Source: Prochlorococcus marinus XMU1412 (GTDB taxonomy: Bacteria; Cyanobacteriota; Cyanobacteriia; PCC-6307; Cyanobiaceae). From it: a DNA stretch of 64,000 nt. Numbering within the stretch: position 1 is the first letter of the stretch; every line of letters starts with the position of its first letter. The position numbers and the translations under genes are program-made. Location of the stretch: contig NZ_JAAORJ010000004.1 in NCBI RefSeq assembly GCF_017696315.1, forward strand, positions 203,125-267,124, read 5' to 3'. Positions 153-27,423 of this stretch are shown here, piece by piece. Under the pieces are notes generated by a model. The model was not told the DNA's origin and did no database searches. It was given only the letters and a program-made list of their open reading frames with translations.

Positions 153-2573
153 TTGGAAAAAGACAACAATAATAATGATATAAAACCTAAACAGCAAATT
201 ACTGATTTTTCAAAGTTCGATGCTGATGAAATAAATTATAAAGAGCTTTTCCAAGGTATTGTTAGAAAAAAAAAGTGGGCATTTGCAACAGGAATAATAG
301 TTTTTCTAGGAATTATAGGTTATACAGTCAAAGAAAGAATAACAAATCCATTATATGCAGGGTCATTCAGAATCTTAATCAGTGATCCAATAAATTCTTC
401 AGGGAAGAAAAATAATGATCTAATTTCTACTGAGTCATCAACTTTTTTCCAAGAACTTGCCTCGGGATCAAGAAGATACGATGTTGACACATTGATATTT
501 CTCCTAAAAAGCCCTAAATTTCTAGAACCTTTAGCAAAAGAGTTCAAAATAAGTCCTACTGCTTTATCAAATAGTATTTCAATCTCAGTTCCAATCAATA
601 CAAGCAGATTTAGGGCTCCAGCAAGTATCCTTATTGTTAATTTAACTACTAAAAACAAATCTAAAGGAATAAATTTACTTAAAGCACTATCTCAAACATA
701 CCTCGAGGAATCCTTGCGTCAAAGACAGCAGAAACTAAATGATGGTCTAGAATTTCTTAATAAGCAAGCTCCGGGAATTAAAGATAAGGAAAATCAATTA
801 CAAACTAAATTAGTTGCATTTAGAAATAAGCATAAACTAATAGATCCGATTAGAGAGGGAGAGAGTTTAAAAGCTCAACAGAGAATGATTGAGAAGAACA
901 TTATTGACATTAACTCCACAATAAGTCGTTTAAAAGATGTTAGGAAAGAAATCCTGAATGGATCAATCACTGCGACAGGCTTTAGAGAACAAATAGGGAC
1001 AGGATTATCAATTGCTGATTTCGATCAAAGCCTGCTAGATCAATTAATTGCAGTTGAGAGAGAACTTGCCATAGCAAAAACAAAATTTACTTCAAAATCC
1101 TCAATCGTTAAAGGGTTAAAGACTAGGCTAAATCAAATTCAGCCTATAATTCTAAAGAATCAAATAGATGCTGTTGATACTGCAATTAATTTGAACGAAA
1201 GTCTTTTAAGAAATACCAAGGAGTCGTTGAAACAACTTGAACTTGAGTTTCTTAAACAACCCGAACTTATTAAGGAATATAAAAGAATTGAAGGAGAGCT
1301 ACTAATTGCGAGTCAAGATCTTATAAAACTTAATTCTTCTATTAAAAGTTTCGAACTTGAGCTAGCGCAAAGCAATATACCGTGGAGACTTATTTCTTCT
1401 CCAAAAATGAGTCCATCTCCCATTAAACCCTCTTTTAGAAGAAATTTACAATTTGGACTTTTAATTTCAATTATTTTTGGTATTTTAGCAGCATTGTTGA
1501 GGGATAGAATGGATCATGTATTTCACTCCTCAAAAGAGATTAAGGATAATCTTAATTATCCAATACTAGGAGAAATCCCTTTCATTAAAAGTTTTTCAGA
1601 ATTAAGAAGCGAAAAATCAGAAATGCTTTCAATTATGGTTGGCGATGGTACACAAAAAGAAAAATTTAATAATAAAAAAGATATTTATCAAAGATTTTTT
1701 TACACTGAAGCACTAAGAAATTTATTTACTTCTATTCGTTTTTCAAATACTGATGAATCTATTAAATTATTGACAATAACAAGTTCATTACCTAAAGAAG
1801 GCAAATCATTACTTAATGTCTTGCTTGCTAAAACTTTAAATGATATGGGAGAGAAGGTATTGATAATAGATGCTGACATGAGAAGACCCCAGATTCATAG
1901 CAGATTAAATCTCGATAATATTTTAGGACTTTCTAATTTGCTTACTGATAATGATATTAACCTCGAAAAAGTTATACAACCTTTGCAGAATTTCAAAAAT
2001 CTTAGTGTAATGACATCAGGCACAATACCTCCAGATCCAACAAGACTATTAAGTTCAAAACGTTTTAAAGAGATATTATCTGAAATAAAATCTTCAAATA
2101 AATATGACATAATTCTATTTGATACTCCTCCAGTATTGGGTTTGGCAGATACAATTCTATTATCTGAAAATTTAGATGGAATAATATTACTTGTGAGTTT
2201 AGGATCTGTAGATAGATCTCTCCCAAGAGAATCTTTAATGAGATTACAAACCACAAAAACAAATATTCTTGGAGTAGTTACAAATGCTATTAAAGATGAA
2301 TATGAATTCGAATATAAAAGATATGGCAAATATTCAAAATATGGTAACTATGGCATTTATAATCAATATAGTTCTTATCAGCCAATTGAAACCTATATCA
2401 ATTATGGGAAAGATAAGCAGCAGGAGATAGAAAATATATCTAAACAAAAAGGTAGGTCCAAAAAAGATGGGCAATATTCAGTTAAAGAAGATAAAAAAGA
2501 GGGAAAAAGTAAACTTATCAAATCATTCAGTAAAAATGTCATAAATAGATTTACTAAATGGCTTGATTCATAA
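153..2573 (+). CDS. Wzz-domain BY-kinase (polysaccharide co-polymerase / tyrosine autokinase)
   Basis: An 806-aa inner-membrane protein that would control chain length and export of surface polysaccharide. A Wzz-type N-terminal region has a membrane segment near residues 41-60. A long coiled-coil periplasmic part follows, then a second membrane segment near 430-450. The cytoplasmic CpsD/BY-kinase domain shows Walker A (PKEGKS, about 550), Walker A' (IIDADMRRP) and Walker B (ILFDTPP). The C-terminus is rich in Tyr (YKRYGKYSKYGNYGIYNQY), the usual autophosphorylation cluster. The start is TTG; I see no better one. It overlaps or nearly abuts the phosphatase gene downstream, so the two are probably co-transcribed. 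Function in the polysaccharide pathway is inferred from the family; no glycosyltransferases lie beside it inside the window. Confidence 0.88.
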   Translation: MEKDNNNNDIKPKQQITDFSKFDADEINYKELFQGIVRKKKWAFATGIIVFLGIIGYTVKERITNPLYAGSFRILISDPINSSGKKNNDLISTESSTFFQELASGSRRYDVDTLIFLLKSPKFLEPLAKEFKISPTALSNSISISVPINTSRFRAPASILIVNLTTKNKSKGINLLKALSQTYLEESLRQRQQKLNDGLEFLNKQAPGIKDKENQLQTKLVAFRNKHKLIDPIREGESLKAQQRMIEKNIIDINSTISRLKDVRKEILNGSITATGFREQIGTGLSIADFDQSLLDQLIAVERELAIAKTKFTSKSSIVKGLKTRLNQIQPIILKNQIDAVDTAINLNESLLRNTKESLKQLELEFLKQPELIKEYKRIEGELLIASQDLIKLNSSIKSFELELAQSNIPWRLISSPKMSPSPIKPSFRRNLQFGLLISIIFGILAALLRDRMDHVFHSSKEIKDNLNYPILGEIPFIKSFSELRSEKSEMLSIMVGDGTQKEKFNNKKDIYQRFFYTEALRNLFTSIRFSNTDESIKLLTITSSLPKEGKSLLNVLLAKTLNDMGEKVLIIDADMRRPQIHSRLNLDNILGLSNLLTDNDINLEKVIQPLQNFKNLSVMTSGTIPPDPTRLLSSKRFKEILSEIKSSNKYDIILFDTPPVLGLADTILLSENLDGIILLVSLGSVDRSLPRESLMRLQTTKTNILGVVTNAIKDEYEFEYKRYGKYSKYGNYGIYNQYSSYQPIETYINYGKDKQQEIENISKQKGRSKKDGQYSVKEDKKEGKSKLIKSFSKNVINRFTKWLDS

Positions 2574-2577
2574 CTTT

Positions 2578-3039
2578 ATGCCTAAAAATAAAAATAAGAA
2601 TTTTTTTATAAATTGGATTTTAAATGATGAAATTGCTATAGGACCCGCTCCTTTAGTCGATGAACATATTTTAATGCTCAAAGAAAAAAATATTCAAGGA
2701 ATTTTAAGTCTGTGTAGCGTGAAAGAGGCCAATCCTCCAATAAATATCGAAGAATTATTTTTTTGCAAAAGGGTAGTACTTCCTGATCATACATACGATA
2801 GAGTAATGAATATTGAAGAACTAAATCTTGCATTATCTATGTTAGAAGATCTTAGAAAGAAAGGTAGTATTTTTGTACACTGTAAAGCAGCAATTGAACG
2901 CTCACCACTTGTTTGTATGGCTTGGTTAATAAAAAAGCGTGACTTAACCATTCAACAATCTTTAGATTATTTAATGAGTGTGAATAAAGGCACTTGCCCT
3001 CTAAATGATCAATTATCTTTACTCAAGGATTTAAACTAA
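2578..3039 (+). CDS. Dual-specificity protein phosphatase-like protein
   Basis: A small cysteine phosphatase of about 153 aa. The signature loop HCKAAIERSP (HCx5R) sits in the second half, with an upstream conserved Asp (LPDHTYDR) that could be the general acid. An upstream in-frame TTG at 2563 would overlap the kinase gene by 11 bases; ATG 2578 is the more natural start. It lies between the tyrosine kinase and the HPr-kinase-like gene (10-base gap). It could therefore reverse the phosphorylation made by either one; which one is not decided by sequence. Confidence 0.82.
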   Translation: MPKNKNKNFFINWILNDEIAIGPAPLVDEHILMLKEKNIQGILSLCSVKEANPPINIEELFFCKRVVLPDHTYDRVMNIEELNLALSMLEDLRKKGSIFVHCKAAIERSPLVCMAWLIKKRDLTIQQSLDYLMSVNKGTCPLNDQLSLLKDLN

Positions 3040-3049
3040 ATAAGTATAA

Positions 3050-3970
3050 ATGTTTTATAGTTCCTTTGGATTAATTTTCAAATCAGAAGATATTACTCTA
3101 CAAGAACTCGAAGCAATAACTAATAAAAATAATAATTTTGATGTTTTAATAAAGCAAAATAATCATAATGAATGGCCTGTTATAAATTCAAATCAATTTG
3201 ATACAGAATTTTTACAAATGGAAGAAAATGATTTTAGATTAAAAGTAGATGGAATTGCACATTTCAGAGTTATTGATGGGAATCAAATCTTTTGGGATAA
3301 ATTAAGTGCAAAGGTTACTGAAAATGATATAAAAGCATTTTTATTTAGTTCAGTTTTTGGCGCTTTATTGATTCAAAGAGGTTTTCTTTTATTACATGGA
3401 AATTCTCTTACTAAAAATAAAAAATTAATAATTTGTCTTGGCAAGTCAGGAATTGGCAAAAGTACAATTTCATACATGTTGATGAAAAAAGGTTGGCAAT
3501 TAATAACAGATGATTTAGTAGCTATTGATAAAAATATGAATGTTTCAATTGGAATTCAAAGAATCAAGCTATGGAAAGATACTTTAAATTATTTAAAAAT
3601 AGACTACAAAAATTTAAAGAAAGTGAGATCAAATATTCAAAAATTTATCCTTTCAAAAGATGAATTGAATATCTCTAAAAAAAGTTATCCAATAACATCT
3701 GTTTTCATTCTTTATTCTGAGACACAACTAGATAAAAAATCTAAAACAACTGATGCTATAAAAGTAAAAAAGGAAAAAACAAAATTTTTTGTTCTAAGAG
3801 ATAATATTTTTAGACCAAGATTCGTAAAAGGTCTTTGTAAAGAATCAGAATATTTCACAAAATTAAGTAATTTCGCAAAGAAATTACCTGTTTTTTTATT
3901 GCCAATACCGAATGATTTAAAAAGAATGGAGAACTTCCTAAAAAATGACTTTGATGATTTCTTTTTTTAA
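3050..3970 (+). CDS. HPr-kinase-like peptide kinase (lasso-peptide tailoring)
   Basis: A 306-aa protein with the HPr kinase/phosphorylase C-terminal fold. The P-loop is GKSGIGKST (about residues 131-139), followed by the ITDDLVAID block typical of this family. The regulatory N-terminal domain of true HPrK is not recognisable, and no HPr/PTS gene is visible. Family members in lasso clusters (PadeK, ThcoK) phosphorylate the C-terminal Ser of the precursor. The precursor here ends in Ser-Ser, which fits. The gene is separated from the sulfotransferase by two bases, so tight co-expression is likely. Substrate assignment is inference from context. Confidence 0.8.
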   Translation: MFYSSFGLIFKSEDITLQELEAITNKNNNFDVLIKQNNHNEWPVINSNQFDTEFLQMEENDFRLKVDGIAHFRVIDGNQIFWDKLSAKVTENDIKAFLFSSVFGALLIQRGFLLLHGNSLTKNKKLIICLGKSGIGKSTISYMLMKKGWQLITDDLVAIDKNMNVSIGIQRIKLWKDTLNYLKIDYKNLKKVRSNIQKFILSKDELNISKKSYPITSVFILYSETQLDKKSKTTDAIKVKKEKTKFFVLRDNIFRPRFVKGLCKESEYFTKLSNFAKKLPVFLLPIPNDLKRMENFLKNDFDDFFF

Positions 3971-3972
3971 AA

Positions 3973-4869
3973 GTGAATTTATCAAAAAATAAATATTGGT
4001 ATTTAGCAAGCTATCCGAAGTCGGGGAACACTTGGTGCAGACTATTTATAAGAGAATTATATAGGTTAACACAAAATCCCAAAAGTAACTTTGAAGATAA
4101 TACTATTCAAAGTGAGATGGATTTAAGTAAGAATATTTCTACTGGTGCAATAATAAGTGATAGATCTTGGTTTGACGATCAAATTGGAATTGATAGTGAA
4201 GAACTTACCAACTTAGAAGTCGAAAAAATAAGAATCAAAGTACATAATCAGCCGTCTCCATATTCGGAGACGCTTAGGTATCACAAAGTTCATGATGCTT
4301 TTTTAAAGACAAACGGAAAAAATAAAAGGATTATCTCAACCAAGAATTGCGCAGGAATTGTTTACATTATTAGAAATCCAATTGATATCGTAATTTCAAT
4401 GGAAAGTTTTTTTGGATGGAGTAAAGGGGAATGTATAAAATTTATTATGAACCCAAACGCATGTTTATCAAATATTACTGATAGAAGTACTTCTCAAATT
4501 ATTCAATATATTGGGACTTGGGAGCATCATGTTAACTCTTGGACGAATCAAAATGATGTCCCCCTATCAGTTTTCAGATACGAAGATTTTCTACAGAGTC
4601 CATTAAAAGAATTCACTAGGTTAAGTAGTTTTCTACAACTTCCAATCAACCCAAAAACTATTGAAGAAGCCGTTGAAAATTGTTCATTTAAAAAACTAAG
4701 AGAAAAAGAGAGAAACTCATTATTTATTGAACGATCTAAATCAGGGAATCCATTTTTTCGCTATGGAAAAAAAGATTTGGGTTTAAAAAGATTATCAAAA
4801 AATGAACTAGATTTGTTAAAAAATAGATTTAGAAATACATTACATAAGTTTGACTATACTTTTAATTGA
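3973..4869 (+). CDS. PAPS-dependent sulfotransferase
   Basis: A 298-aa Sulfotransfer_1 family protein starting at GTG. The 5'-phosphosulfate loop is YPKSGNTW (about residues 14-21). The 3'-phosphate block is RNPIDIVIS (about 133-141). It sits between the peptide kinase and the precursor gene, so the lasso peptide is the obvious candidate substrate. The predicted core contains no Tyr, so sulfation would have to fall on Ser/Thr or on something else. Alternatively it could modify a surface glycan connected with the Wzz protein upstream. Confidence 0.82.
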   Translation: MNLSKNKYWYLASYPKSGNTWCRLFIRELYRLTQNPKSNFEDNTIQSEMDLSKNISTGAIISDRSWFDDQIGIDSEELTNLEVEKIRIKVHNQPSPYSETLRYHKVHDAFLKTNGKNKRIISTKNCAGIVYIIRNPIDIVISMESFFGWSKGECIKFIMNPNACLSNITDRSTSQIIQYIGTWEHHVNSWTNQNDVPLSVFRYEDFLQSPLKEFTRLSSFLQLPINPKTIEEAVENCSFKKLREKERNSLFIERSKSGNPFFRYGKKDLGLKRLSKNELDLLKNRFRNTLHKFDYTFN

Positions 4870-4934
4870 TCATATTTCATGTTATTGTCTATTTGAATAT
4901 AATATTTTATAATTACAATAAACATTTTTTAAAA

Positions 4935-5081
4935 ATGAAAGATGAAGGAATAAAAAAATGGGTCACTCCAAAACTTGAAATCTTAAGGCATACGGAAATA
5001 ATGGGAAAAGAAAGTTTTAACGTTCCTGAGCAAAACAAGACTGGTACAGATACTTCAGCCGTTTCTAACGCCTCTTCTTAA
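4935..5081 (+). CDS. Predicted lasso-peptide precursor (A)
   Basis: A 48-aa peptide; the longer in-frame reading from 4866 is unlikely because ATG 4935 directly begins a typical leader. The leader (residues 1-23) contains WVTPKLEIL, matching the Y/WxxPxL recognition motif bound by PqqD-like B1 proteins. Cleavage after Met23 gives a 25-aa core beginning GKESFNVPE, where Gly1 and Glu9 can form a nine-residue macrolactam. The tail is rich in Ser, Thr, Asn and Ala and ends in Ser-Ser. The -2 leader residue would be Ile rather than the usual Thr. The gene has its own short upstream spacer (65 bases) inside the cluster. Assignment rests on context plus motif; the mature product is not proven. Confidence 0.8.
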   Translation: MKDEGIKKWVTPKLEILRHTEIMGKESFNVPEQNKTGTDTSAVSNASS

Positions 5082-5491
5082 TAAGTTTAATAAAAAATAA
5101 AATCATACTTAAAAAAATATATTCAGAGATATGCAAGCCACCAAATTTTTTCTGGCTTCAAGATAAAAAAATATTTCAGATATTCAAAATTAGTAATTAT
5201 AATTACATAATTTTTTTTGAAATCTTTAAACAGTTTTTTTCATGGACTAACAAAATCCTTAACATAAGAAGATTTTTAGCTTTCCAAAAGAAAAATAATA
5301 TACCTTTAGAGTATTTATTAAAAGCATCTATATTAAATAACTTCACTTTAAATGAAGTAATATTTTGGTATAAAAATAATATAAAAGAATGGAATAAACT
5401 TGCTTTAATCAAGCCAGAATGTTTAACAAAATCAATACATTTTCAGAATAGATTACATTGGCCTAATCAATGCAAGGAATCAATCAATATT
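5081..5491 (+). other. Open in-frame N-terminal extension of the ATP-grasp gene, no standard start codon
   Basis: Reading upstream from the TTG at 5492 in the same frame, I find no stop until 5066-5068, just before the precursor stop. The 137 extra codons look coding (for example KPPNFFWLQDK and WYKNNIKEWNKLALIKPE) and would restore an N-terminal region to the protein. There is no in-frame ATG, GTG or TTG in this stretch. Possible explanations are an ATA/ATC/ATT start near 5081-5120, or an upstream frameshift or sequencing error (ATG 5131 lies in another frame and hits a stop after 11 codons). Confidence 0.65.
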
Positions 5492-6241
5492 TTGCAACAA
5501 AAATCAAATCTACTACATAGGATTCCTAAAAAATATAGACCTCATTTTGAAACAATTACAGATGAATCATACTCAATAAATCCAAAACTCGAAAAATTCC
5601 TATATAAAGATGGCTTAGTTCTAAAGCCAAATATCGGCAGTAGGAGCAGAAATACTTATCATCTTTTTATGAAAAATGAAAAATTAATAGTAAAAGATTT
5701 ATTTACTTTAAAAATTAACAATAAATCCATGCATAATAATTTATTAGATTTTCTAGGAGATATAAAAACTTTTAAAAAAAGAGAAGGTATTTATTCAAAT
5801 TTAATTTTAATGCCTTATTTAAAACATTCTAATATTTTGCCAAAAAATGATATATCTATTGTATTTAGAACTATATCGGAATATTCAATGGAGCAAGATC
5901 AAATATCTATAAAAGAAGCTTGGATGGAAATATTTGATAAAAATAATAACCTAAACATTATTAATCATGAACAATATTTGTTTAATATTGATAGGCCTCA
6001 AATGAGGCTTGAAGAACTAGAGAAAATTTTGAATTTTAAATTTAAAAATGAAGAGCTAAGGAAAATTTATAAACTATTATTTAGTGCATCTAAAGCTGTT
6101 CATTCTATATTACCCCCAATTAATGAAGTTGCATGGGATTGGATTAAAACAGACAATAAGTTATATTTACTGGAAGGTAATTCATCTTTTAGCCTCTATC
6201 CTATTAAATACTTTAAAATTTTAAAAAATAGGTTACATTAA
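5492..6241 (+). CDS. ATP-grasp protein (sugar-transfer-associated type) in the lasso cluster
   Basis: 249 aa from the first acceptable start (TTG 5492), but coding sequence clearly continues upstream to about 5081, so the full protein is probably near 380 aa. ATP-grasp features visible: GLVLKPNIGSRS (about residues 48-59), which resembles the ATP-binding Lys strand and loop, and the C-terminal block EVAWDWIKTDN...LLEGNSSF, with the Glu/Asn pair that binds Mg-ATP. The family joins a carboxylate to a nucleophile through an acyl phosphate. Its position between precursor and B1 suggests tailoring of the lasso peptide or a role in conjugation, but no exact substrate can be given. Confidence 0.7.
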   Translation: MQQKSNLLHRIPKKYRPHFETITDESYSINPKLEKFLYKDGLVLKPNIGSRSRNTYHLFMKNEKLIVKDLFTLKINNKSMHNNLLDFLGDIKTFKKREGIYSNLILMPYLKHSNILPKNDISIVFRTISEYSMEQDQISIKEAWMEIFDKNNNLNIINHEQYLFNIDRPQMRLEELEKILNFKFKNEELRKIYKLLFSASKAVHSILPPINEVAWDWIKTDNKLYLLEGNSSFSLYPIKYFKILKNRLH

Positions 6242-6257
6242 AATTATTTTAAGCTTA

Positions 6258-6521
6258 ATGAAGTTAAAGAAAAATCCAAAATTAGTATCAGAAGTATTGG
6301 ATGAGGAGATATGTCTTTTTAATCCCAAAAATGCAAAATATATTAATTTAAATTCAACAGGTTCCATAATATGGGGGCTTTTAGACACTTCAAAAGAAGT
6401 TGACGAAATTATTAAAATAATGAAAAAAGGATATAAAGATAAAAACACAAATATAGAAAATGAAATAATGTTATTTATAAATGATGGTATTGCAAATGAT
6501 ATTTTTTATTATGAAAAATAA
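6258..6521 (+). CDS. PqqD-like RRE protein, lasso B1
   Basis: An 87-aa stand-alone RiPP recognition element. Conserved PqqD/B1 features visible are the N-terminal strands (EEICLFNPKNAKYINLNSTGSIIWGLLD) around residues 17-44 and the helix with EVDEIIKIM. B1 proteins bind the leader motif and hand the precursor to the peptidase. It lies 15 bases before the B2 gene, the usual B1-B2 order in clusters with a split leader peptidase. Confidence 0.87.
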   Translation: MKLKKNPKLVSEVLDEEICLFNPKNAKYINLNSTGSIIWGLLDTSKEVDEIIKIMKKGYKDKNTNIENEIMLFINDGIANDIFYYEK

Positions 6522-6535
6522 GAAACTTCTTAAAG

Positions 6536-6934
6536 GTGCTTAAATTTTTATTTATCTTTATCTTATATTTTTTAGATACTTTAACCTGGATATTAATCAA
6601 ATTCATATCGGGAGAACTCTTAATGAAATTGCTAAGAAAAAATTGCATAAATAAATTTAGCTTTAGATTAAAAGATAAAAAAATTTTTTTAATCAAGAAA
6701 AAAACTAGAGAATTTTGTGAAAAAAAATCTTTTTTTAGCTCATGTTTAAGTAAAGCAATATCTATTAAATTTATTTTTGACATACTTAATATAAATAACA
6801 AATTATATTTTGGGATAAGTAAGCATTCTAATGGCAAAAAAGTTGCTCATGCTTGGTTAGTTGATCCAAAAGCAGGAAAATCTATCACTCCTGGATTTTA
6901 TAAAGATAAAGGACTTACAGTTTATAAATTTTAA
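6536..6934 (+). CDS. Transglutaminase-like leader peptidase, lasso B2
   Basis: 132 aa from GTG 6536; a shorter start at ATG 6623 would remove a hydrophobic N-terminus. Visible catalytic elements of the lasso B2 (McjB C-terminal) fold are the nucleophile in SSCLSKA (Cys near residue 68) and AHAWLVDPKAG, holding the His near 102 and the following Asp. It would cut the leader from the precursor, freeing the Gly1 amine for ring closure. It is encoded directly between B1 and the cyclase. Confidence 0.85.
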   Translation: MLKFLFIFILYFLDTLTWILIKFISGELLMKLLRKNCINKFSFRLKDKKIFLIKKKTREFCEKKSFFSSCLSKAISIKFIFDILNINNKLYFGISKHSNGKKVAHAWLVDPKAGKSITPGFYKDKGLTVYKF

Positions 6935-6948
6935 GTTATTAATTACTT

Positions 6949-8487
6949 ATGAAATTACCAACAAATGATCCAAAACTTTTAACCGAGGGTTTATATAAAA
7001 CTGATATTTTTAATTTAAATCCAATGTTTGCAGTTCAATTGCAAAATAAACAACAACTATCATATGTACGTTCTTGGGAAGAAGCATTTGCTATTCATGG
7101 TGAAGCTTATATCTCAGATATCAATCCTGCTTATGTTGCCTCTCTAATAACTAATGTACAAACTAACACTTCCTCCCCTTATAAAAGGATTAAAAGACTA
7201 CCTCGAGCTAACTTTATAAAAATACTAAGAAATGGGGATTTTAAAGCATACCCCTATGAACCTTTCGGAGGGGGGGTTTCTTCTCAAAAGGAGAGAGAAC
7301 TCCATAACATTATTGATTATATTTTTCAAAATAAATTAAAAAATGCAATCCCCCAAGGCGAAAATAGAATAGGTTGTGAACTAAGTAGTGGGTTAGATTC
7401 TAATGCCATAGTTGGCGGGTTAATAAAAGGTTTAGATATTGATCCTAGAAATATTTTCACCTGGAGTCACGATGGTAATGGAGAAGAATCCTACATAAAA
7501 GAATTTCAGACTTTCCACAAACTCAATACTGAAAATACTCATATTAATAAAACTGAATACAAAAAAGAAAATTTCCAAGAATCATTAAAAGAAAATTTAT
7601 TTATTTTTGGTATGCCTCATCAATTGGGAGGGAATACAGAGTGTATAAAATTTTTCAAAAAATGCTCTTGTAAGATATTATTTAGTGGTTTTGGGGGTGA
7701 TCAAGCTATTAGCCACAATGGACATAACCTAGCAACAGACCTAATAAAAAATTTCGAATTTATTGAGTTCTTTCAGTGGATGGATAATCCTTTAAAGGCT
7801 CTAAAAACAATGCTTGGGAGAACATATGGACTAATCAATAACGACTGGCAGGAAAGTAAATTTTCAAAAAAAGTTTCTCATATGAAAAAGAATAATTTAC
7901 TTATTTCATTGCTGACAGAAAAAGGTAAAGATTGGCTAATTCCGCACTTGTCAAAAGAGTTTATTGCTGAGATTGATACGTATAGTACACTTCATAACTC
8001 AATAAGACAAAGATGTATGTCTCAATGGGTCTCTGTAAGACTAGAAGAAGAAGTAAGATTGGCTGCCAAATATGGAATAAGAAAATATTTTCCCTTATTG
8101 GATGAAACACTTTTAGGAACTCTTTTAAATCAAGATCCAAAGTATTTCGCAGAAAAATATCTTCAAGGTAGATTAATCCACAGAAAATCTTTTGCAAAAT
8201 ATCTTCCCGAGAAGTTAAGACTAGATCCATCAAAATATAGAGATATAAATAATCAATGGACTGCATTTGAAAGAGAAAAGCAAGCTAAGGTTTTAAATGA
8301 TCTAATTGAATTTTCTCAACAATGGAATCAACATTTATCTAAATTTTGGCAATTAGATGAGTTAAAGAAATATGCTATTAATACTCAAATAAATATTAAG
8401 AAAATTAATATTCATGAGAGTAGCAAGGTTATCAAAGCTATGAGAACCGTTAATAAATTAAGTTGTTGGTTTTCTGAACTAGAATGA
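6949..8487 (+). CDS. Asparagine-synthetase-like lasso cyclase (C)
   Basis: 512 aa, the same size class as McjC. The ATP-pyrophosphatase motif is SSGLDS (about residues 146-151), with a second conserved block FSGFGGDQ (about 245). The N-terminal glutaminase-like region lacks the Cys2 nucleophile of true AsnB, as expected for an enzyme that adenylates a side-chain carboxylate and couples it to the peptide N-terminus rather than using ammonia. In this cluster it would activate Glu9 of the core. It overlaps the exporter gene by four bases (ATGA). Confidence 0.9.
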   Translation: MKLPTNDPKLLTEGLYKTDIFNLNPMFAVQLQNKQQLSYVRSWEEAFAIHGEAYISDINPAYVASLITNVQTNTSSPYKRIKRLPRANFIKILRNGDFKAYPYEPFGGGVSSQKERELHNIIDYIFQNKLKNAIPQGENRIGCELSSGLDSNAIVGGLIKGLDIDPRNIFTWSHDGNGEESYIKEFQTFHKLNTENTHINKTEYKKENFQESLKENLFIFGMPHQLGGNTECIKFFKKCSCKILFSGFGGDQAISHNGHNLATDLIKNFEFIEFFQWMDNPLKALKTMLGRTYGLINNDWQESKFSKKVSHMKKNNLLISLLTEKGKDWLIPHLSKEFIAEIDTYSTLHNSIRQRCMSQWVSVRLEEEVRLAAKYGIRKYFPLLDETLLGTLLNQDPKYFAEKYLQGRLIHRKSFAKYLPEKLRLDPSKYRDINNQWTAFEREKQAKVLNDLIEFSQQWNQHLSKFWQLDELKKYAINTQINIKKINIHESSKVIKAMRTVNKLSCWFSELE

Positions 8488-10169
8488 AAATTGATATAAC
8501 CACATCCAAACAGCTAAGACTCCTTTTTTATCTTATTAAAGAAGCTGGATATAAAGAAACATTAAAGTTTGGATTATTGATTATCTATAATTATTTTTTA
8601 GAAATAATAAGCTTAAGTATAGGAATAAAGATTCTTTTAAATCAAAATTACAGAATTGATGACCTAAATCAAGAATATGGAATCCCTTTATCTATTACCT
8701 TAATAATCATAATTTTATCAATAAGGTCATTTTCAAGAGTTTTTACTATTAACTTACAAGAAAGAATAAAATGTGAGCTTGCTAATAAATTCAAGGAAGA
8801 AACGCTTAAAAACATTTTGAAATCAGATTATGAAAATTTAAGAGATATAGGTAGAGGTTCTTTACATAAAATAATTCTTATAAACATTTCAAAATCGATT
8901 TCATCAATTGACCAATTTTTAAGGCTTATAAATCAGTTTATATGCTTCTTAGCATACTTATTCGGACTAATATTTTTTAAAACTTATGATGTTAAGCTAA
9001 TAACAATAGTTTTAATCTCTTCATTTACAACTTTAGTAATTTATAACCCCAATACTTGGAATCTTGGGCAATTAATAAACAAGCATACAGGACAATTAAA
9101 TAAAATTATTGGAAATGGACTAGTAGGGATCAAAACAATTAAGTCTGCGAATTCCGAAGAATGGCTTCTTAATAAATTCAAACGAAGTAATAAAAACTAT
9201 AAGAAGTTAATGCTTGAAAACATTTACAGAAATAATTTATTTGTTTGTTTTAAAGATATTGTTGTTCTAATTTCCGTTGGCACTTGGTTAATTTTGATCA
9301 GAAATGATTTGGATATATTATCTGCAGGAACAAGTTTATTGTTCTGCTACAAGTTATCTAATGCAGCTACAAATGGAATAAGAAACTGGAGATCTTGTAT
9401 AAATGGATTACCAGCTTACTTAGAACTTAAAGAGATTACCTCTAAAATAAAAAAGAATAAAATCAAAAATAATTTACCCACTAAAACGAGTAAAATTTTA
9501 AATGAATTTATTAGTAATAAAAATCAAATAATCTCAATAAGTTGGGAAAACAAAAAAAATAAAAAAATAAAAATAAATAAATTAAGTCTCAATGTAGGAG
9601 AAATTACTGTTATTTCAGGAATTTCAGGAGTAGGCAAAACAAGATTGATTGATACATTCATAGGTCTTAGTGACTTAAAAGGATCATCATGGACAATCAA
9701 ATTAAAAAATAAAAATTTAAAACTCAATGGATACACTGAATCTGAATTATTAGCAAGAGAACTTATTTCATACTCACCACAAGATGCAATGCTGATAGAA
9801 GCATCTTTAAAAGATAATCTATTATTGGGTAATTCATTAAATTACAGAGATAAGGACATTTTAGAATACTTAAGAAAAATGAATCTTCAACATATCAATA
9901 ATAGGAATTTTGGACTAAATAAAGAAATAGATTTCTCAATCAATCCATATTCAGGCGGAGAGATTCAGAAAATTAATATTTTAAGAAGCTGGTTAAAAGA
10001 TAATCCAATAGAAATATATGATGAGCCTACAACATTTCAAGATGATAAATCTGTAAAAAATATAATTGAAAAATTAAAAGAAAGGTCTCAAAACAAAATG
10101 ATATTAATTGTAAGCCACGATTTCAGAATAATCCAGATAGCAAATAAACAGCTCATCCTAAATTCATAG
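8484..10169 (+). CDS. ABC exporter with fused membrane and ATPase domains (lasso D)
   Basis: 561 aa: several hydrophobic membrane segments in the first 310 residues, then a nucleotide-binding domain. Walker A is SGVGKT (near 380), the ABC signature YSGGE (near 489), Walker B IEIYDEPT (near 511) and the H-loop SHD. It would export the mature lasso peptide and give the producer immunity. Start codon overlaps the cyclase stop. Confidence 0.88.
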   Translation: MKIDITTSKQLRLLFYLIKEAGYKETLKFGLLIIYNYFLEIISLSIGIKILLNQNYRIDDLNQEYGIPLSITLIIIILSIRSFSRVFTINLQERIKCELANKFKEETLKNILKSDYENLRDIGRGSLHKIILINISKSISSIDQFLRLINQFICFLAYLFGLIFFKTYDVKLITIVLISSFTTLVIYNPNTWNLGQLINKHTGQLNKIIGNGLVGIKTIKSANSEEWLLNKFKRSNKNYKKLMLENIYRNNLFVCFKDIVVLISVGTWLILIRNDLDILSAGTSLLFCYKLSNAATNGIRNWRSCINGLPAYLELKEITSKIKKNKIKNNLPTKTSKILNEFISNKNQIISISWENKKNKKIKINKLSLNVGEITVISGISGVGKTRLIDTFIGLSDLKGSSWTIKLKNKNLKLNGYTESELLARELISYSPQDAMLIEASLKDNLLLGNSLNYRDKDILEYLRKMNLQHINNRNFGLNKEIDFSINPYSGGEIQKINILRSWLKDNPIEIYDEPTTFQDDKSVKNIIEKLKERSQNKMILIVSHDFRIIQIANKQLILNS

Positions 10170-10192
10170 GAAATTAAAACCTAACCTTTGCA

Positions 10193-11356
10193 ATGAAAGA
10201 AACAATATTTGATGATAATTGGAAAAAAGAAATTAATAGTCTTATTAAATTATTCAATTTTATTTATATAAATAAAAAATATATTAATAATAAAAATAAA
10301 AGAAAGATAAAAATTAAAGTTTATAATCAGAATTTTTTTATAAGAACAGCCATAAGACATAATTTTGTCGTTAATGTTCAAAACTTTATGATTTTAGAAA
10401 AAAAATCATTGCAACAAAAAATAAAATATCTGTCTGATTTAGAAGTAAAAAAACTTATGGCTATAACTGGCTACAATTGTCTAATATCAGAGGTTCTACA
10501 AGAAAATAAGATTCCTGTAATAATATACAAAGGAATTATATTATCGCTCTTAACTAATAGAAAATTTAAGGACAGACAATGTAATGATATTGACATCCTA
10601 GTTAATGAGATAGATGTAAAAAAAACAGTTAAAATTCTTGAAAAAATAGGTTTTACAATAAAATATGGTTTCTTTAAAAATGAATCTAATTCTCTAATAG
10701 AAAAGTATTATCTTTTTGGGAATAATGCACTAACGTTAAGTAAAAAAATAAGCAGTTTTGAAATAAATATAGACTTACATTGGAAAATAATAACAACTAG
10801 TCCAAATATTATAAGTTTTGAAGAACTTTGGAACTCAAGAAAAATAATTGAACTAAATGGAGTAAAAATAAATACATTAAATTACTATTACACTTACTTA
10901 ACATGCTGCTATAACTCTTCAAAAAATAAATGGAATAATATAAGTAATCTTTTAGATATTGCTTTGTTGAAAGGAGAGTTAAATAAAGATCAAATAACTT
11001 CTCTTGATAGCAATTTGGTTGTTAAAAATACTAATATTGTCGTTGATTCACTTTTAAACGATGAAATATACAAATATCAAAAAGGTTCAAAAAAAGTAGA
11101 AGAAATATTGATTTTGTCTAAGAATAGTCAAATAAAACATAGTAAAGGAACAAATAAAAAGAAAAAAACTAGTTTTTGGGAAAAATTTTCTTTAGCGAAA
11201 CAAAGGATGGGAATGTGTGAAACATACGAAGATAAGTTGAGAGTTCTTGTAACAGTTTTTTTCCCTGTTTCAATTTTTATAAGTAAAAAAAATACTATTA
11301 TTGCAAATCCTTTATTTATAGTAAAAAATATCTTTGCTAAATTGTTACTTGACTAA
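10193..11356 (+). CDS. Nucleotidyltransferase-family protein (lasso N type)
   Basis: A 387-aa protein related to NTP_transf_5. The core block is IIYKGI...RKFKDRQCNDIDILV near residues 110-140, with the Asp pair of the nucleotidyltransferase fold. Proteins of this kind are regularly found with the HPr-like kinase in lasso clusters (PadeN) but their reaction is less well settled. The C-terminus is Lys-rich then hydrophobic. It is the last gene of the run; the next gene, lexA, is convergent. No terminator hairpin is evident in the 37-base gap. Confidence 0.75.
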   Translation: MKETIFDDNWKKEINSLIKLFNFIYINKKYINNKNKRKIKIKVYNQNFFIRTAIRHNFVVNVQNFMILEKKSLQQKIKYLSDLEVKKLMAITGYNCLISEVLQENKIPVIIYKGIILSLLTNRKFKDRQCNDIDILVNEIDVKKTVKILEKIGFTIKYGFFKNESNSLIEKYYLFGNNALTLSKKISSFEINIDLHWKIITTSPNIISFEELWNSRKIIELNGVKINTLNYYYTYLTCCYNSSKNKWNNISNLLDIALLKGELNKDQITSLDSNLVVKNTNIVVDSLLNDEIYKYQKGSKKVEEILILSKNSQIKHSKGTNKKKKTSFWEKFSLAKQRMGMCETYEDKLRVLVTVFFPVSIFISKKNTIIANPLFIVKNIFAKLLLD

Positions 11357-11393: not shown

Positions 11394-12011
11394 TTATATT
11401 TTTCTCCAAACAGCTAGTAATTTTCCTTGAAAAATCACTTGGTTAGGATCTATTACGATTGGTTCATATGCTGAATTTGCCGCTTCTAAAAATATCTTAT
11501 TCCCTTTTTTAAAAAAATATTTTAAGGTAGTTCCTAAACCAGGAACCAAAGCACTTACTATATCTCCATTTCTTAATGCAAATGCATCTTTAATTGGCTC
11601 CATTAGCACCATATCGCCATCAGCAATGCAAGCATCAACCATAGAATCTCCATTTACTGTTAATGCGAACACATCTCTCTTTTTGAGGACATCAGAAATA
11701 TCTAGATTTTCCTGCTGCACATCAGAAAAGGTCTCTATTAACCCTCCAGCTGCAACTGAACCCATGATTGGAACCTTATCGAATTGGTCTGCTATCTGCA
11801 TTGTTCTTGCTTTTCCTTCCTGCCATGAAATATATCCTTTTTCTTGTAAATGTTTCAAACGACTTTGAATTGGAGCAGGTGATTTTAAATTCATAGCTTG
11901 CATCATTTGCCTTATGGAGGGACTATGTTGAAATTCTTTCATATAGTCCTTTATCCATTTGTATAGCTCATGCTGAGGTTCTGTAAGATTATGATCAGAA
12001 GAAATGCCCAC
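11394..12011 (-). CDS. lexA: LexA repressor
   Basis: A 205-aa LexA with an N-terminal winged-helix DNA-binding domain (residues about 1-70) and a C-terminal S24 protease domain. The self-cleavage site is Ala88-Gly89 (SVAAGG); the catalytic dyad is Ser123 (NGDSM) and Lys164 (TTLKYF). It represses SOS genes until RecA-ssDNA triggers cleavage. Two operator-like sites lie within 30 bases upstream of the start, so autoregulation is likely. Confidence 0.95.
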   Translation of the reverse strand: MGISSDHNLTEPQHELYKWIKDYMKEFQHSPSIRQMMQAMNLKSPAPIQSRLKHLQEKGYISWQEGKARTMQIADQFDKVPIMGSVAAGGLIETFSDVQQENLDISDVLKKRDVFALTVNGDSMVDACIADGDMVLMEPIKDAFALRNGDIVSALVPGLGTTLKYFFKKGNKIFLEAANSAYEPIVIDPNQVIFQGKLLAVWRKI

Positions 12012-12025
12012 GGAACAGATGTACT
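12012..12025 (-). promoter_or_regulatory. LexA operator 1 (lexA autoregulation)
   Basis: On the minus strand the site reads AGTACATCTGTTCC, which fits the cyanobacterial LexA box RGTACNNNDGTWCB at every position. It begins one base upstream of the lexA start codon. Confidence 0.8.
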
Positions 12026-12027
12026 CT

Positions 12028-12041
12028 AATACATTTGTACC
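12028..12041 (-). promoter_or_regulatory. LexA operator 2 (imperfect)
   Basis: The minus strand reads GGTACAAATGTATT, one mismatch from RGTACNNNDGTWCB (T for C in the right half). It lies two bases from operator 1, suggesting paired or cooperative binding. Confidence 0.6.
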
Positions 12042-12067
12042 TATTAACTAGATAAATTGCAAGTAAT

Positions 12068-12994
12068 TTAGGACAAAATACAAGATAAAAGGGCTTGTTG
12101 AGCATGCATTCTATTTTCTGCTTGATCAAAAATTCTGCTATTTTTACTTTCAAAAATTTCTTCAGTAATCTCTTTTTCTCTATAAGCTGGAAGACAATGT
12201 AAAATTATGACATTTTCTTTGGCTTGGTTAACTAAATCTTGATCAAGAGTGAATCCATTAAAATCTTTATCTTTTTCTTCTTTCTGATCTTCTTCACCCA
12301 TTGAAGACCATACATCTGTATACAAAACATTCGCTCCTAAAACAGCAGAATTAACATCATTTGTTATCTGTAAAAAGTCCTCATTATTATTAATTGCCTT
12401 TGCCCTTTGAATAATAGATTTATCAGGTTCATAACCTACAGGACAAGCTATCCTAATCTTTGCCTCTAACAATGCTCCGCATAAAATCAGGGAATTAGAT
12501 ACATTATTACCATCGCCTATAAAAGTCAAAACAATATCTTCAAAAGAGCCAAACTCTTCTTTAATAGTAAGAAAATCAGCCAAAGCTTGACAAGGATGCT
12601 CTAGATCAGTAAGCGCATTTATTACAGGCTTTGTAGACCATTTTGCATAATCTTCTATATCTGAATGTTTAAAAGTTCTTATAGCTAAAACATCGCAATA
12701 CCTGCTAAGAACTCTTGCAGTATCCTTAATAGGCTCTCCTCTTCCAATTTGAGATGTATTTGGGTTTAAGTCAATAGTTGTTCCTCCTAGTCGGGACATG
12801 GCAACTTGAAAACTCACTCTCGTACGAGTTGATGATTTATCAAAAACCAAACCAAGAACTTTTTTTTCACAATCTACAGATATTTCTTTTTTCTTAAGTT
12901 GTTGTGCTAACTCTAAAATATAAATCAACTCTAGCTTAGTTATGTCTAGACTTGATAAGAAATCTTTACTTGCAAGCTTTTTAGGTTTAAACAT
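12068..12994 (-). CDS. argF: Ornithine carbamoyltransferase
   Basis: 308 aa. Makes citrulline from ornithine and carbamoyl phosphate in arginine synthesis. The carbamoyl-phosphate motif STRTR is at residues 55-59 and the ornithine/catalytic HCLP motif near 265. Lies 32 bases downstream of ftsH on the same strand, so read-through is plausible. Confidence 0.95.
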   Translation of the reverse strand: MFKPKKLASKDFLSSLDITKLELIYILELAQQLKKKEISVDCEKKVLGLVFDKSSTRTRVSFQVAMSRLGGTTIDLNPNTSQIGRGEPIKDTARVLSRYCDVLAIRTFKHSDIEDYAKWSTKPVINALTDLEHPCQALADFLTIKEEFGSFEDIVLTFIGDGNNVSNSLILCGALLEAKIRIACPVGYEPDKSIIQRAKAINNNEDFLQITNDVNSAVLGANVLYTDVWSSMGEEDQKEEKDKDFNGFTLDQDLVNQAKENVIILHCLPAYREKEITEEIFESKNSRIFDQAENRMHAQQALLSCILS

Positions 12995-26244: not shown

Positions 26245-27423
26245 ATGAAATACTGTCTATATATTACTTATGATGGCCTATTAGATCCCTTAGGCCAATC
26301 TCAGATTCTTCCTTACTTAAGAAATTTAAATAAAAATGATAATAAATTTATAGTTGTTAGTTATGAAAAAATTGAGAAGAATAAAATTGAAATAAAATCA
26401 CTAAAGAAAATTTTAGAAAGAGAGGGGTTTGAATGGATAATCCTTCCTTTTAAAAAAGGCAAAATACATTTTTTATTAAGAATAATATTCGGAGTGATTC
26501 GTATTAAAACATTACTAATCTTAAGAAAGATTAATTTAGTTCATTTAAGAGGCTGTTTCCCAGGCCTTATTTACATACTTACTTTTTCTTCAACAAATTA
26601 TTTATATGACCTAAGGGCCTTTTTTGGACAATGGGCTGATGGAGGAATTACAAAGTATAATTCCCTAGCTTATAAATTTTCATTGTTACTTGAAAAAAGA
26701 ATAATAAATAAAGCAAGTGCGATAGTAGTACTAGATCAATCTGGCAAAGAATACATAGAAAAAAATTATGCCCTCAAGAGTCCCACCTATATAATCTCCA
26801 CAGCAACAGATTTAAGTAAATATAAATTAAAAAAATTACCTAAATCAAATAAAAATAGATTAATAAAATTAGTTTATCTTGGTGGAGCAAGATTTCCTCC
26901 ATATAGAATTGTGGATGCAATAATTCTAACCAAGATATTTATTAAAGCTGGAGTAAATTGTAGGTTAGATTTTATTAACAAGAATGACCATAATTTTATT
27001 GAAGATACTCTTTATAAATACCAAATTCCAAAAAATTCCTACACCATTAAAAATTTGAATCACGATCAAATTTATACAAAGCTTCCAGAATATGATGTAG
27101 GCTTTGTATTTTTAAATAAAGGTAAATGGATAAGAATGAGCTCCCCAACAAAGATAGGGGAATATTTAGCTGCAGGATTAATTGTTATAGGTAATCATGA
27201 TATTGCTGTGCTTGATAGGCTATCTTTGGAATCAAAAAACATTGAGATCATAAAAGAATGTGGTGAAAAAATTTCTTATGAAAAAGATAAGATTTCTAAT
27301 CTACTAAAAAAAATTTATAGTAAAAACACAAAACACGAGTCTCAAAAATTGGCAGAAAAATATTATTCATTAGAGAATGCAAACTCAGAGTATCAAAAAA
27401 TTTACAATTTTTTAAATAAATGA
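26245..27423 (+). CDS. Glycosyltransferase, GT4-like
   Basis: 392 aa with a GT-B layout: an N-terminal Rossmann half starting YCLYITYDGLLDPLGQSQILPYL and a C-terminal half with a nucleotide-sugar site (SPTKIGEYLAAGLIVIGN, about residue 300). It would transfer a sugar to a lipid-linked or surface glycan. The next gene, an epimerase, is convergent. Exact donor and acceptor unknown. Confidence 0.8.
   Translation: MKYCLYITYDGLLDPLGQSQILPYLRNLNKNDNKFIVVSYEKIEKNKIEIKSLKKILEREGFEWIILPFKKGKIHFLLRIIFGVIRIKTLLILRKINLVHLRGCFPGLIYILTFSSTNYLYDLRAFFGQWADGGITKYNSLAYKFSLLLEKRIINKASAIVVLDQSGKEYIEKNYALKSPTYIISTATDLSKYKLKKLPKSNKNRLIKLVYLGGARFPPYRIVDAIILTKIFIKAGVNCRLDFINKNDHNFIEDTLYKYQIPKNSYTIKNLNHDQIYTKLPEYDVGFVFLNKGKWIRMSSPTKIGEYLAAGLIVIGNHDIAVLDRLSLESKNIEIIKECGEKISYEKDKISNLLKKIYSKNTKHESQKLAEKYYSLENANSEYQKIYNFLNK

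Follow-up and report, generated by a model that had tools for sequence, protein, structure and literature searches.

The closest known counterparts of the locus analysed here are the lasso-peptide clusters with a kinase gene. The locus itself, a complete operon of nine genes (3050-11356, ~8.3 kb, all on the + strand and nearly gapless), lies in a 64,000-nucleotide stretch of the genome of Prochlorococcus marinus XMU1412, and the whole stretch is called the window below; the genome is of the Prochlorococcus type, 1.73 Mb in size, in 5 contigs and 100% complete. Here and below, statements on cited papers refer to the accessible parts of their text. Paeninodin of Paenibacillus dendritiformis and other kinase-bearing clusters share with the window the lasso core genes, a kinase with the His-Lys-Asp-Asp motif and a precursor with a C-terminal Ser (PMC8498205, PMC9266682). 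Compared with paeninodin, the window adds genes for a sulfotransferase (ST), a nucleotidyltransferase (N) and an ATP-grasp enzyme (X), and it differs in a shorter N-terminus of the cyclase, in Ile at leader position -2 and in its marine picocyanobacterial host. The pseudomycoidin cluster of Bacillus pseudomycoides has, like the window, both a kinase and a nucleotidyltransferase, and the terminal phospho-Ser of its product bears one or two hexoses (PMC8498205, PMC9266682); unlike the window, it has no sulfotransferase or ATP-grasp gene mentioned in that text, and for N of the window the addition of a sugar is a prediction. The BsfA cluster of Bradymonas sediminis resembles the window in the genes A, B1, B2, C, D, K and N and in Ile(-2), whereas phosphorylation there is on Ser3, and neither ST nor X is mentioned in the text available (PMC10368454).

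Lasso clusters are already known in other cyanobacteria (PMC9332814, PMC8600333). Those of Nostocales, for example Cyanocohniella sp. LLY, contain a precursor, B1, B2 and C as in the window, yet their hosts are filamentous, and the accessible description, on which the distinction is based, does not mention a kinase, a sulfotransferase or an ATP-grasp enzyme (PMC9332814). A putative sulfotransferase gene has, as in the window, been noted in lasso clusters of Firmicutes, with no function reported for it in the text seen (PMC8498205); no X was found in the 16 distant loci considered here. We found no paper with lasso peptides and Prochlorococcus, marine Synechococcus or picocyanobacteria together in the title or abstract, in a search that left most subscription papers outside, and no claim of a lasso cluster in Prochlorococcus in the accessible parts of PMC11118758, PMC7014017, PMC7761380 and PMC8600333. 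Provisionally, a lasso product can be considered rare and undescribed for this genus. New features of the window cluster are the dedicated ATP-grasp gene, the short N-terminal region of the cyclase, and the host organism.

By sequence, the window operon is very probably a genuine lasso-peptide operon of the kinase/nucleotidyltransferase (paeninodin/pseudomycoidin) kind. The original prediction, made from the letters of the window alone, described a complete lasso cluster at this place, and each of the seven genes that it named is indeed there, on the + strand and almost without gaps. Two genes inside the interval had been overlooked, ST (3973-4869) and X (approximately 5081-6241). Hence the paeninodin-type label holds for the lasso core with a kinase and a nucleotidyltransferase, while the set is not the plain paeninodin one, as a sulfotransferase and a dedicated ATP-grasp gene are added.

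All components of the lasso core are present. The precursor gene A (4935-5081) starts with ATG and encodes 48 amino acids (aa), the listed open reading frame beginning at TTG 4866. B1 (6258-6521) is a PqqD-like leader-binding protein, corresponding to the recognition element (RRE) of ribosomally synthesized and post-translationally modified peptides (RiPPs); it matches PF05402 (41.2 bits, cut-off 23.4), and its best NCBIfam match is lasso_PqqD_Bac (42.4 bits, under the cut-off of 80). B2 (6536-6934), a transglutaminase-like leader peptidase, has lasso_biosyn_B2 (NF033537) as the sole NCBIfam match (E 1.2e-4), and its Cys70 and His105 are invariant in 14/14 aligned B2 proteins from lasso clusters. 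C (6949-8487, 512 aa) is an asparagine-synthetase-like lasso cyclase with the predicted SSGLDS loop, which reads LSSGLDS; its best NCBIfam match is the lasso cyclase model NF033535 (E 2.3e-13), with residue 64 aligned to model position 181. D (8484-10169) is an ABC exporter with fused permease and ATPase (PF00005, 57.6 bits; PF00664, 29 bits). The lasso cyclase model matches all nine C proteins of the picocyanobacterial group at E<=1e-5, as compared to 4/9 for the asparagine synthase model, and the lasso B2 model matches 7/7 picocyanobacterial B2 at E<=1 (best E 1.5e-9). Thus neither B2 nor C falls clearly in a non-lasso family, and precursors accompany the enzymes in related genomes; the original prediction had named these two points as those on which it could fail. 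The RiPPs usually discussed for Prochlorococcus, whose genomes are very small, are lanthipeptides. The claim that the cluster represents a class other than the prochlorosins is supported, and no LanC-like cyclase (PF05147) was matched at E<=0.001 in the source genome.

The leader of A contains the recognition motif WVTPKLEIL and Ile at -2. The predicted core comprises 25 residues, Gly1-Ser25, a length that the original prediction had also given and that appears reasonable. With this predicted core start, an acidic residue is present at core position 7-9, namely Glu9, which would be the ring acceptor, leaving a 16-residue tail. Among the core residues are five Ser and three Thr, as well as Lys and Glu close to the ring; Tyr is absent. 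In total, eight picocyanobacterial precursors were located (the window and our loci L022, L024, L025 and L028-L031), and 8/8 have the W-x-x-P leader motif and a C-terminal Ser, where the search pattern for L025 and L028 required an aromatic-x-x-P motif and a terminal Ser, and the other six were found without requiring the latter. Of these six, L024 and L022 were found with patterns requiring the leader motif (with a choice of the first residue) or this motif plus an acidic residue, and the three precursors from single-amplified genomes (SAGs) by reading the gap between genes. With these patterns, L023, L026 and L027 yielded no precursor. A strict pattern combining leader, ring and terminal Ser, written after the precursors had been seen and missing those of L022 and of most distant clusters, has precursor A as its sole match in the 64-kb window and zero matches in 209,748 bp of other, lasso-free Prochlorococcus island DNA. 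This goes beyond chance, and the gene set as such recurs in three other Prochlorococcus genomes. A conserved Thr(-4), considered as a new leader rule on the basis of four precursors, was dropped, as Thr/Ile/Ser at -2 explains the data about equally well.

Several observations weigh against the reading of the locus as a lasso operon with all its tailoring steps. The window C scores 49.6 bits against the lasso cyclase cut-off of 525, its N-terminal region being shortened, and B2 is under both curated cut-offs (Pfam, 24.1 vs 26 bits; NCBIfam, 22.4 vs 33). The leader of A has Ile instead of Thr(-2), and the L024 precursor fits the Gly1-Glu9 pattern poorly. X may not be made, since it has no standard start codon, and the site of phosphorylation is not certain, since BsfK, the kinase of a related pathway, acts on Ser3 and not on the terminal Ser (PMC10368454). 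As a control, we considered the distant cyclases of L034, L035, L041 and L047, and all four also miss the cut-off (160-383 bits); hence the value of 525 does not separate lasso from non-lasso proteins here. In the same control, B2 of L034, L035 and L041 (3/3) and B1 of L034 (1/1) exceed the NCBI lasso cut-offs. As to the leader, Ile(-2) has been validated by experiment in BsfA (PMC10368454), and so Thr(-2) is not strictly defining for lasso precursors.

The picocyanobacterial cyclases are 503-564 aa long, and most of the distant ones, 619-654 aa. We do not consider the short cyclase unique, as the three Legionellales C proteins in the tree also have 542-549 aa. In the unrooted tree of C, where long branches and uneven composition were flagged by the program, eleven picocyanobacterial rows are separated from the 12 others at 100/100, and the four Prochlorococcus rows, with long branches, group at just 80/92. 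A sequence search against solved structures yielded nothing useful for B2 or X and weak asparagine synthetase matches for C, and viral contigs searched with C contained no confirmed relative.

The presence of an HPr-like kinase and a nucleotidyltransferase in a lasso cluster of a Prochlorococcus-type genome, as originally proposed, is borne out. The kinase K (3050-3970) matches Hpr_kinase_C (PF07475, E 1.2e-7) at 31.9 bits, just under the cut-off of 33.3. Its residues H116, K137 and D154 are invariant in 16/16 aligned K proteins from lasso clusters, and D155 is conserved in 15/16, which corresponds to the His-Lys-Asp-Asp motif reported for lasso kinases (PMC9266682). As K retains this motif and precursor A ends in Ser, both features of the paeninodin type are present, and K is predicted to phosphorylate the C-terminal Ser, by analogy with PadeK, ThcoK and SyanK, for which this reaction is reported (PMC8498205, PMC9266682). 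The nucleotidyltransferase N (10193-11356) belongs to the NTP_transf_5 family (PF14907, 89.3 bits, cut-off 31.2), with K113-G114, R128 and D132-x-D134 invariant in 10/10 aligned proteins. PsmN, annotated as a nucleotidyltransferase, adds a hexose to the phospho-Ser of pseudomycoidin, with nucleotidylation plus glycosylation by the host as a possible alternative (PMC9266682). N, a PF14907 protein with the conserved D-x-D, may act like PsmN.

ST (3973-4869) is a PAPS-type (3'-phosphoadenosine-5'-phosphosulfate) sulfotransferase (PF00685, Sulfotransfer_1, 76.1 bits, cut-off 22). Its S-x-P-x-SGNTW motif, K105/H107, R134 and S142 are invariant in 14/14 aligned ST proteins from lasso clusters; we take these to be the PAPS motifs and K-x-H. 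Sulfation of Tyr by ST is unlikely in the window, as the core of A has no Tyr. In the text seen on sulfated lasso peptides, sulfation was mentioned only as a general example.

The frame of X is open at 5069-6241, that is, for 390 codons in AT-rich DNA, with no ATG, GTG or TTG before 5492 (residue 138 of 386, with 5081 as the first codon). As the alignment of the window X with its relatives extends N-terminally beyond this first standard start, the real start should be near 5081-5130. An in-frame ATA at 5081 overlaps the stop codon of precursor A and could be the start; it would leave 17 residues before a Cys aligning with that of the L029 X, which has 16. A frameshift as the cause of the loss was rejected: as none of the frames contains an ATG, GTG or TTG between 5069 and 5130, a single indel in this segment would not restore a standard start within it. 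Hence, we leave the ATA start and a lost start as alternatives.

Graspetides are an example of an ATP-grasp enzyme acting on a ribosomal peptide. Unlike in graspetide clusters, the full lasso machinery is present in the window, and none of the nine X proteins matches a graspetide ligase model of Pfam or NCBIfam at E<=1; a peptide is still a conceivable substrate of X. Eight of the nine X proteins match PF14397, the sugar-transfer associated ATP-grasp family (best E 1.1e-6), the window X being the one that does not. NCBIfam gives no match for the window X either, and weak matches to glutathione synthase and RimK (E 0.071 and 0.38), each in a single member. The AlphaFold model of the window X, built for the residues from 5117, has a mean pLDDT (predicted confidence) of 77.8, with the first 27 residues modelled poorly. 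Foldseek relates it to D-Ala-D-Ala ligases, tubulin tyrosine ligase and ATP-grasp ligases with a probability of 1.00, the query TM-scores being only 0.30-0.39 among the 50 matches listed. The window X also keeps the positions common to the other eight, including K170-x3-G174, R251, D341 and E353-G-N355. No paper describing PF14397 was found.

In the genus, X is present in exactly the same 4/266 genomes as C, own genome included. In the sample of the family it occurs in 7/400 genomes, six of them with C; C occurs without X in the genome G338, and a broken X without a detected C in G583. The 16 distant cyclase loci (L032-L047) showed no X, though some of them are on short contigs. X is therefore tied to this lasso branch. 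The X gene of G583 (contig C130, L080-L082) is in pieces, two of them with internal stops; this is likely a decayed cluster in a relative without a detected C.

The genus set of 266 genomes, including the source genome, contains many incomplete ones, and 87 are at least 90% complete with contamination of at most 5%. C was detected in four of the 266 (single protein, E<=1e-30; nine-row profile, E<=1e-10), three of which are among these 87, and in seven of the 400 sampled genomes of the family, own genome included, from five of 59 genera. Thus, the original statement that a streamlined picocyanobacterium makes a modified lasso peptide stands as far as the presence of the cluster is concerned, while the cluster is rare island cargo and not a general trait. 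The three other Prochlorococcus carriers are the SAGs AG-347-M18, AG-402-K16 and AG-347-M23; their gene products are ~26-43% identical to those of the window, and the cyclases of the other carriers are 29-38% identical to the window C. The carriers mostly share K, ST, A, B1, B2, C, D, N and X, a gene set also found in metagenome-assembled genomes (MAGs) of freshwater Cyanobium/Synechococcus. The AG-347-M18 cluster is divided, B1, B2 and N being beyond Wzc and the dual-specificity phosphatase (DSP), and its K gene is truncated at the end of the contig. G338 has C, D, N and a precursor within ~10 kb and B1 and B2 at a distance of ~30 kb; the stretches read there showed neither K nor ST, and X was not found in the genome. 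No K or ST was seen on the 5.4-kb contig of L023 or in the 12.2 kb read of L026, and the L028 sequence starts inside D.

Lasso clusters of other phyla are also recovered with profiles of the picocyanobacterial K, ST, B1, B2, C and N. Among the distant cyclase loci L032-L047, K is present in 10/16 and B1 in 11/16, often with B2, ST, D or N nearby. K and ST are adjacent in 7/16 (L033-L036, L040, L041, L047), and K has no adjacent ST in L032, L037 and L042. The relation of six loci (L038, L039, L043-L046) is weaker, as none of them showed K.

Some of the related clusters have additional genes. In AG-402-K16, a 2-oxoglutarate-Fe(II) oxygenase-like gene (L007:7291-7875; PF13640, 31.2 bits) between C and D may encode a hydroxylase for its lasso peptide. 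In freshwater Cyanobium/Synechococcus clusters, a family-2 glycosyltransferase gene is situated between D and N (L017:13460-14314, PF00535, 63.9 bits; L018 and L020, by eye). One freshwater Synechococcus MAG (G397) contains two different lasso clusters, L017 and L020, one of which may be foreign, as the MAG is 85% complete with 3% contamination. In the lasso cluster of Metabacillus litoralis (L034:6220-8928), two kinase genes flank one sulfotransferase gene.

To the left of the operon are Wza (identified by eye), a Wzc-like polysaccharide protein (AAA_31, 37.9 bits; Wzz, 19.7 bits, under the cut-off of 25.5) and the DSP (DSPc, 45.9 bits), the latter two at 153-3039 (+), with the DSP directly downstream of Wzc, and being neighbours rather than core lasso genes. 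To the right are lexA and the ornithine carbamoyltransferase gene argF (the two at 11394-12994, -, from Pfam), then ftsH. As judged by eye, lexA, argF and ftsH occur together in 5/5 relatives read, and beside lexA in these five there are other island genes, largely of the polysaccharide type; the pair lexA-argF is thus a conserved border of the polysaccharide island. The lasso operon is cargo of this surface-polysaccharide island between Wzc-DSP and lexA. In the relative G103, which shows no lasso genes here, only 113 bp separate the DSP from lexA, and we take this junction as the unoccupied site. The DSP adjoins the cluster in 4/4 Prochlorococcus carriers, and Wzc was found in 3/4; in AG-347-M23 (L031) the DSP is beside the lasso genes, and Wzc was not found in the stretch read. 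The DSP is enriched at the cluster (4/4 lasso loci vs 6/59 lasso-negative genomes, Fisher p 3.5e-4, a count that mixes two samples, G130 and G158 being outside the 61-genome sample). It was rejected as a lasso gene, as it is present in 8/61 sampled genomes, six of which are lasso-negative with the DSP directly adjoining Wzc in all six.

In this setting, beside Wza/Wzc, the operon could modify polysaccharides or sugars of the surface island, with C as an asparagine-synthetase-like amidotransferase next to ST, X and N, and have no ribosomal peptide product; the sugar-transfer association of the X family is in line with this, and folds of several of the operon enzymes are common in polysaccharide islands. 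We know of no role for B1 and B2 in the synthesis of polysaccharides. A precursor with a RiPP leader motif and terminal Ser, here and in seven other picocyanobacterial loci, and the match of 9/9 C proteins to the lasso cyclase model, as compared to 4/9 for the asparagine synthase model, further argue against such an operon, making it very improbable. Alternatively, the lasso operon could be silent or undergoing decay in this strain, with the start of X lost and the product not made or made without the modification by X. The lack of a standard start before residue 138 of X, the rarity of X and of the cluster, and the decayed X of G583 would agree with this. Conversely, the long open frame with its conserved positions kept, the catalytic residues that K, ST, B2 and N retain, and the absence of interruptions in any other gene of the operon speak for function, and ATA 5081 is where a start coupled to the precursor stop would lie, giving an N-terminal length close to that of the L029 X. 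Thus, we consider decay unlikely.

Somewhat less unlikely, yet still not favoured, is a lasso peptide with other tailoring, where the phosphate would be on an internal Ser or Thr, or ST and X would act on ring residues. BsfK with its Ser3 target (PMC10368454) is a precedent, and the many hydroxyl residues of the core, together with Lys and Glu near the ring, would offer suitable sites. The terminal Ser in all eight precursors, which partly reflects how two of them were sought, and the terminal phosphorylation by PadeK, ThcoK and SyanK (PMC8498205, PMC9266682) favour modification at the terminus instead.

The preferred product is then predicted to be a Gly1-Glu9 lasso peptide with a 16-residue tail and a phosphorylated, probably glycosylated terminal Ser, sulfation being likely; the chemistry beyond ring and phosphate is hypothetical. 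The steps of B1, B2, C, K and N are proposed by analogy with the described pathways. B1 would bind the W-x-x-P-x4-L leader of the 48-aa precursor and hand the precursor to the tailoring enzymes, and K would phosphorylate the hydroxyl of Ser25, probably while the precursor is linear. B2 would cleave after Met(-1), and C would activate the side chain of Glu9 and join it to the amine of Gly1, forming a 9-residue ring with the 16-residue tail trapped. Then N may attach a sugar to the phosphate, in the manner shown or suggested for PsmN, and D would export the finished peptide. The targets of ST and X are suggested with little support: ST might sulfate a hydroxyl in the tail or on the added sugar with PAPS as the donor, and X might form, driven by ATP, a further amide- or ester-type bond, for example between an amino acid or small acid and the sugar/phosphate terminus, or a side-chain crosslink.

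It is possible, rather than probable, that X is a new ATP-grasp lasso tailoring ligase of picocyanobacteria, which together with K, N and ST builds a charged terminus of the phospho-sulfo-glyco type or a second crosslink like that of graspetides; neither was found for any lasso peptide in the literature searched. As the Prochlorococcus clusters adjoin capsule-type genes, the product may be surface-associated or capsule-linked and not a freely diffusing antibiotic. The cluster would define a lasso branch with three or four predicted tailoring steps, two of which, by the sulfotransferase and the ATP-grasp enzyme, have no reported activity on lasso peptides in the accessible literature and thus present testable peptide chemistry. 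Rare nine-gene island cargo with divergent cyclases points to a diversifying trait involved in interactions with neighbours or phages, or in the cell surface. Elsewhere in the window, a glycosyltransferase-like gene (26245-27423, +; by eye) is located in a low-GC stretch (~28% GC), perhaps a second small island.

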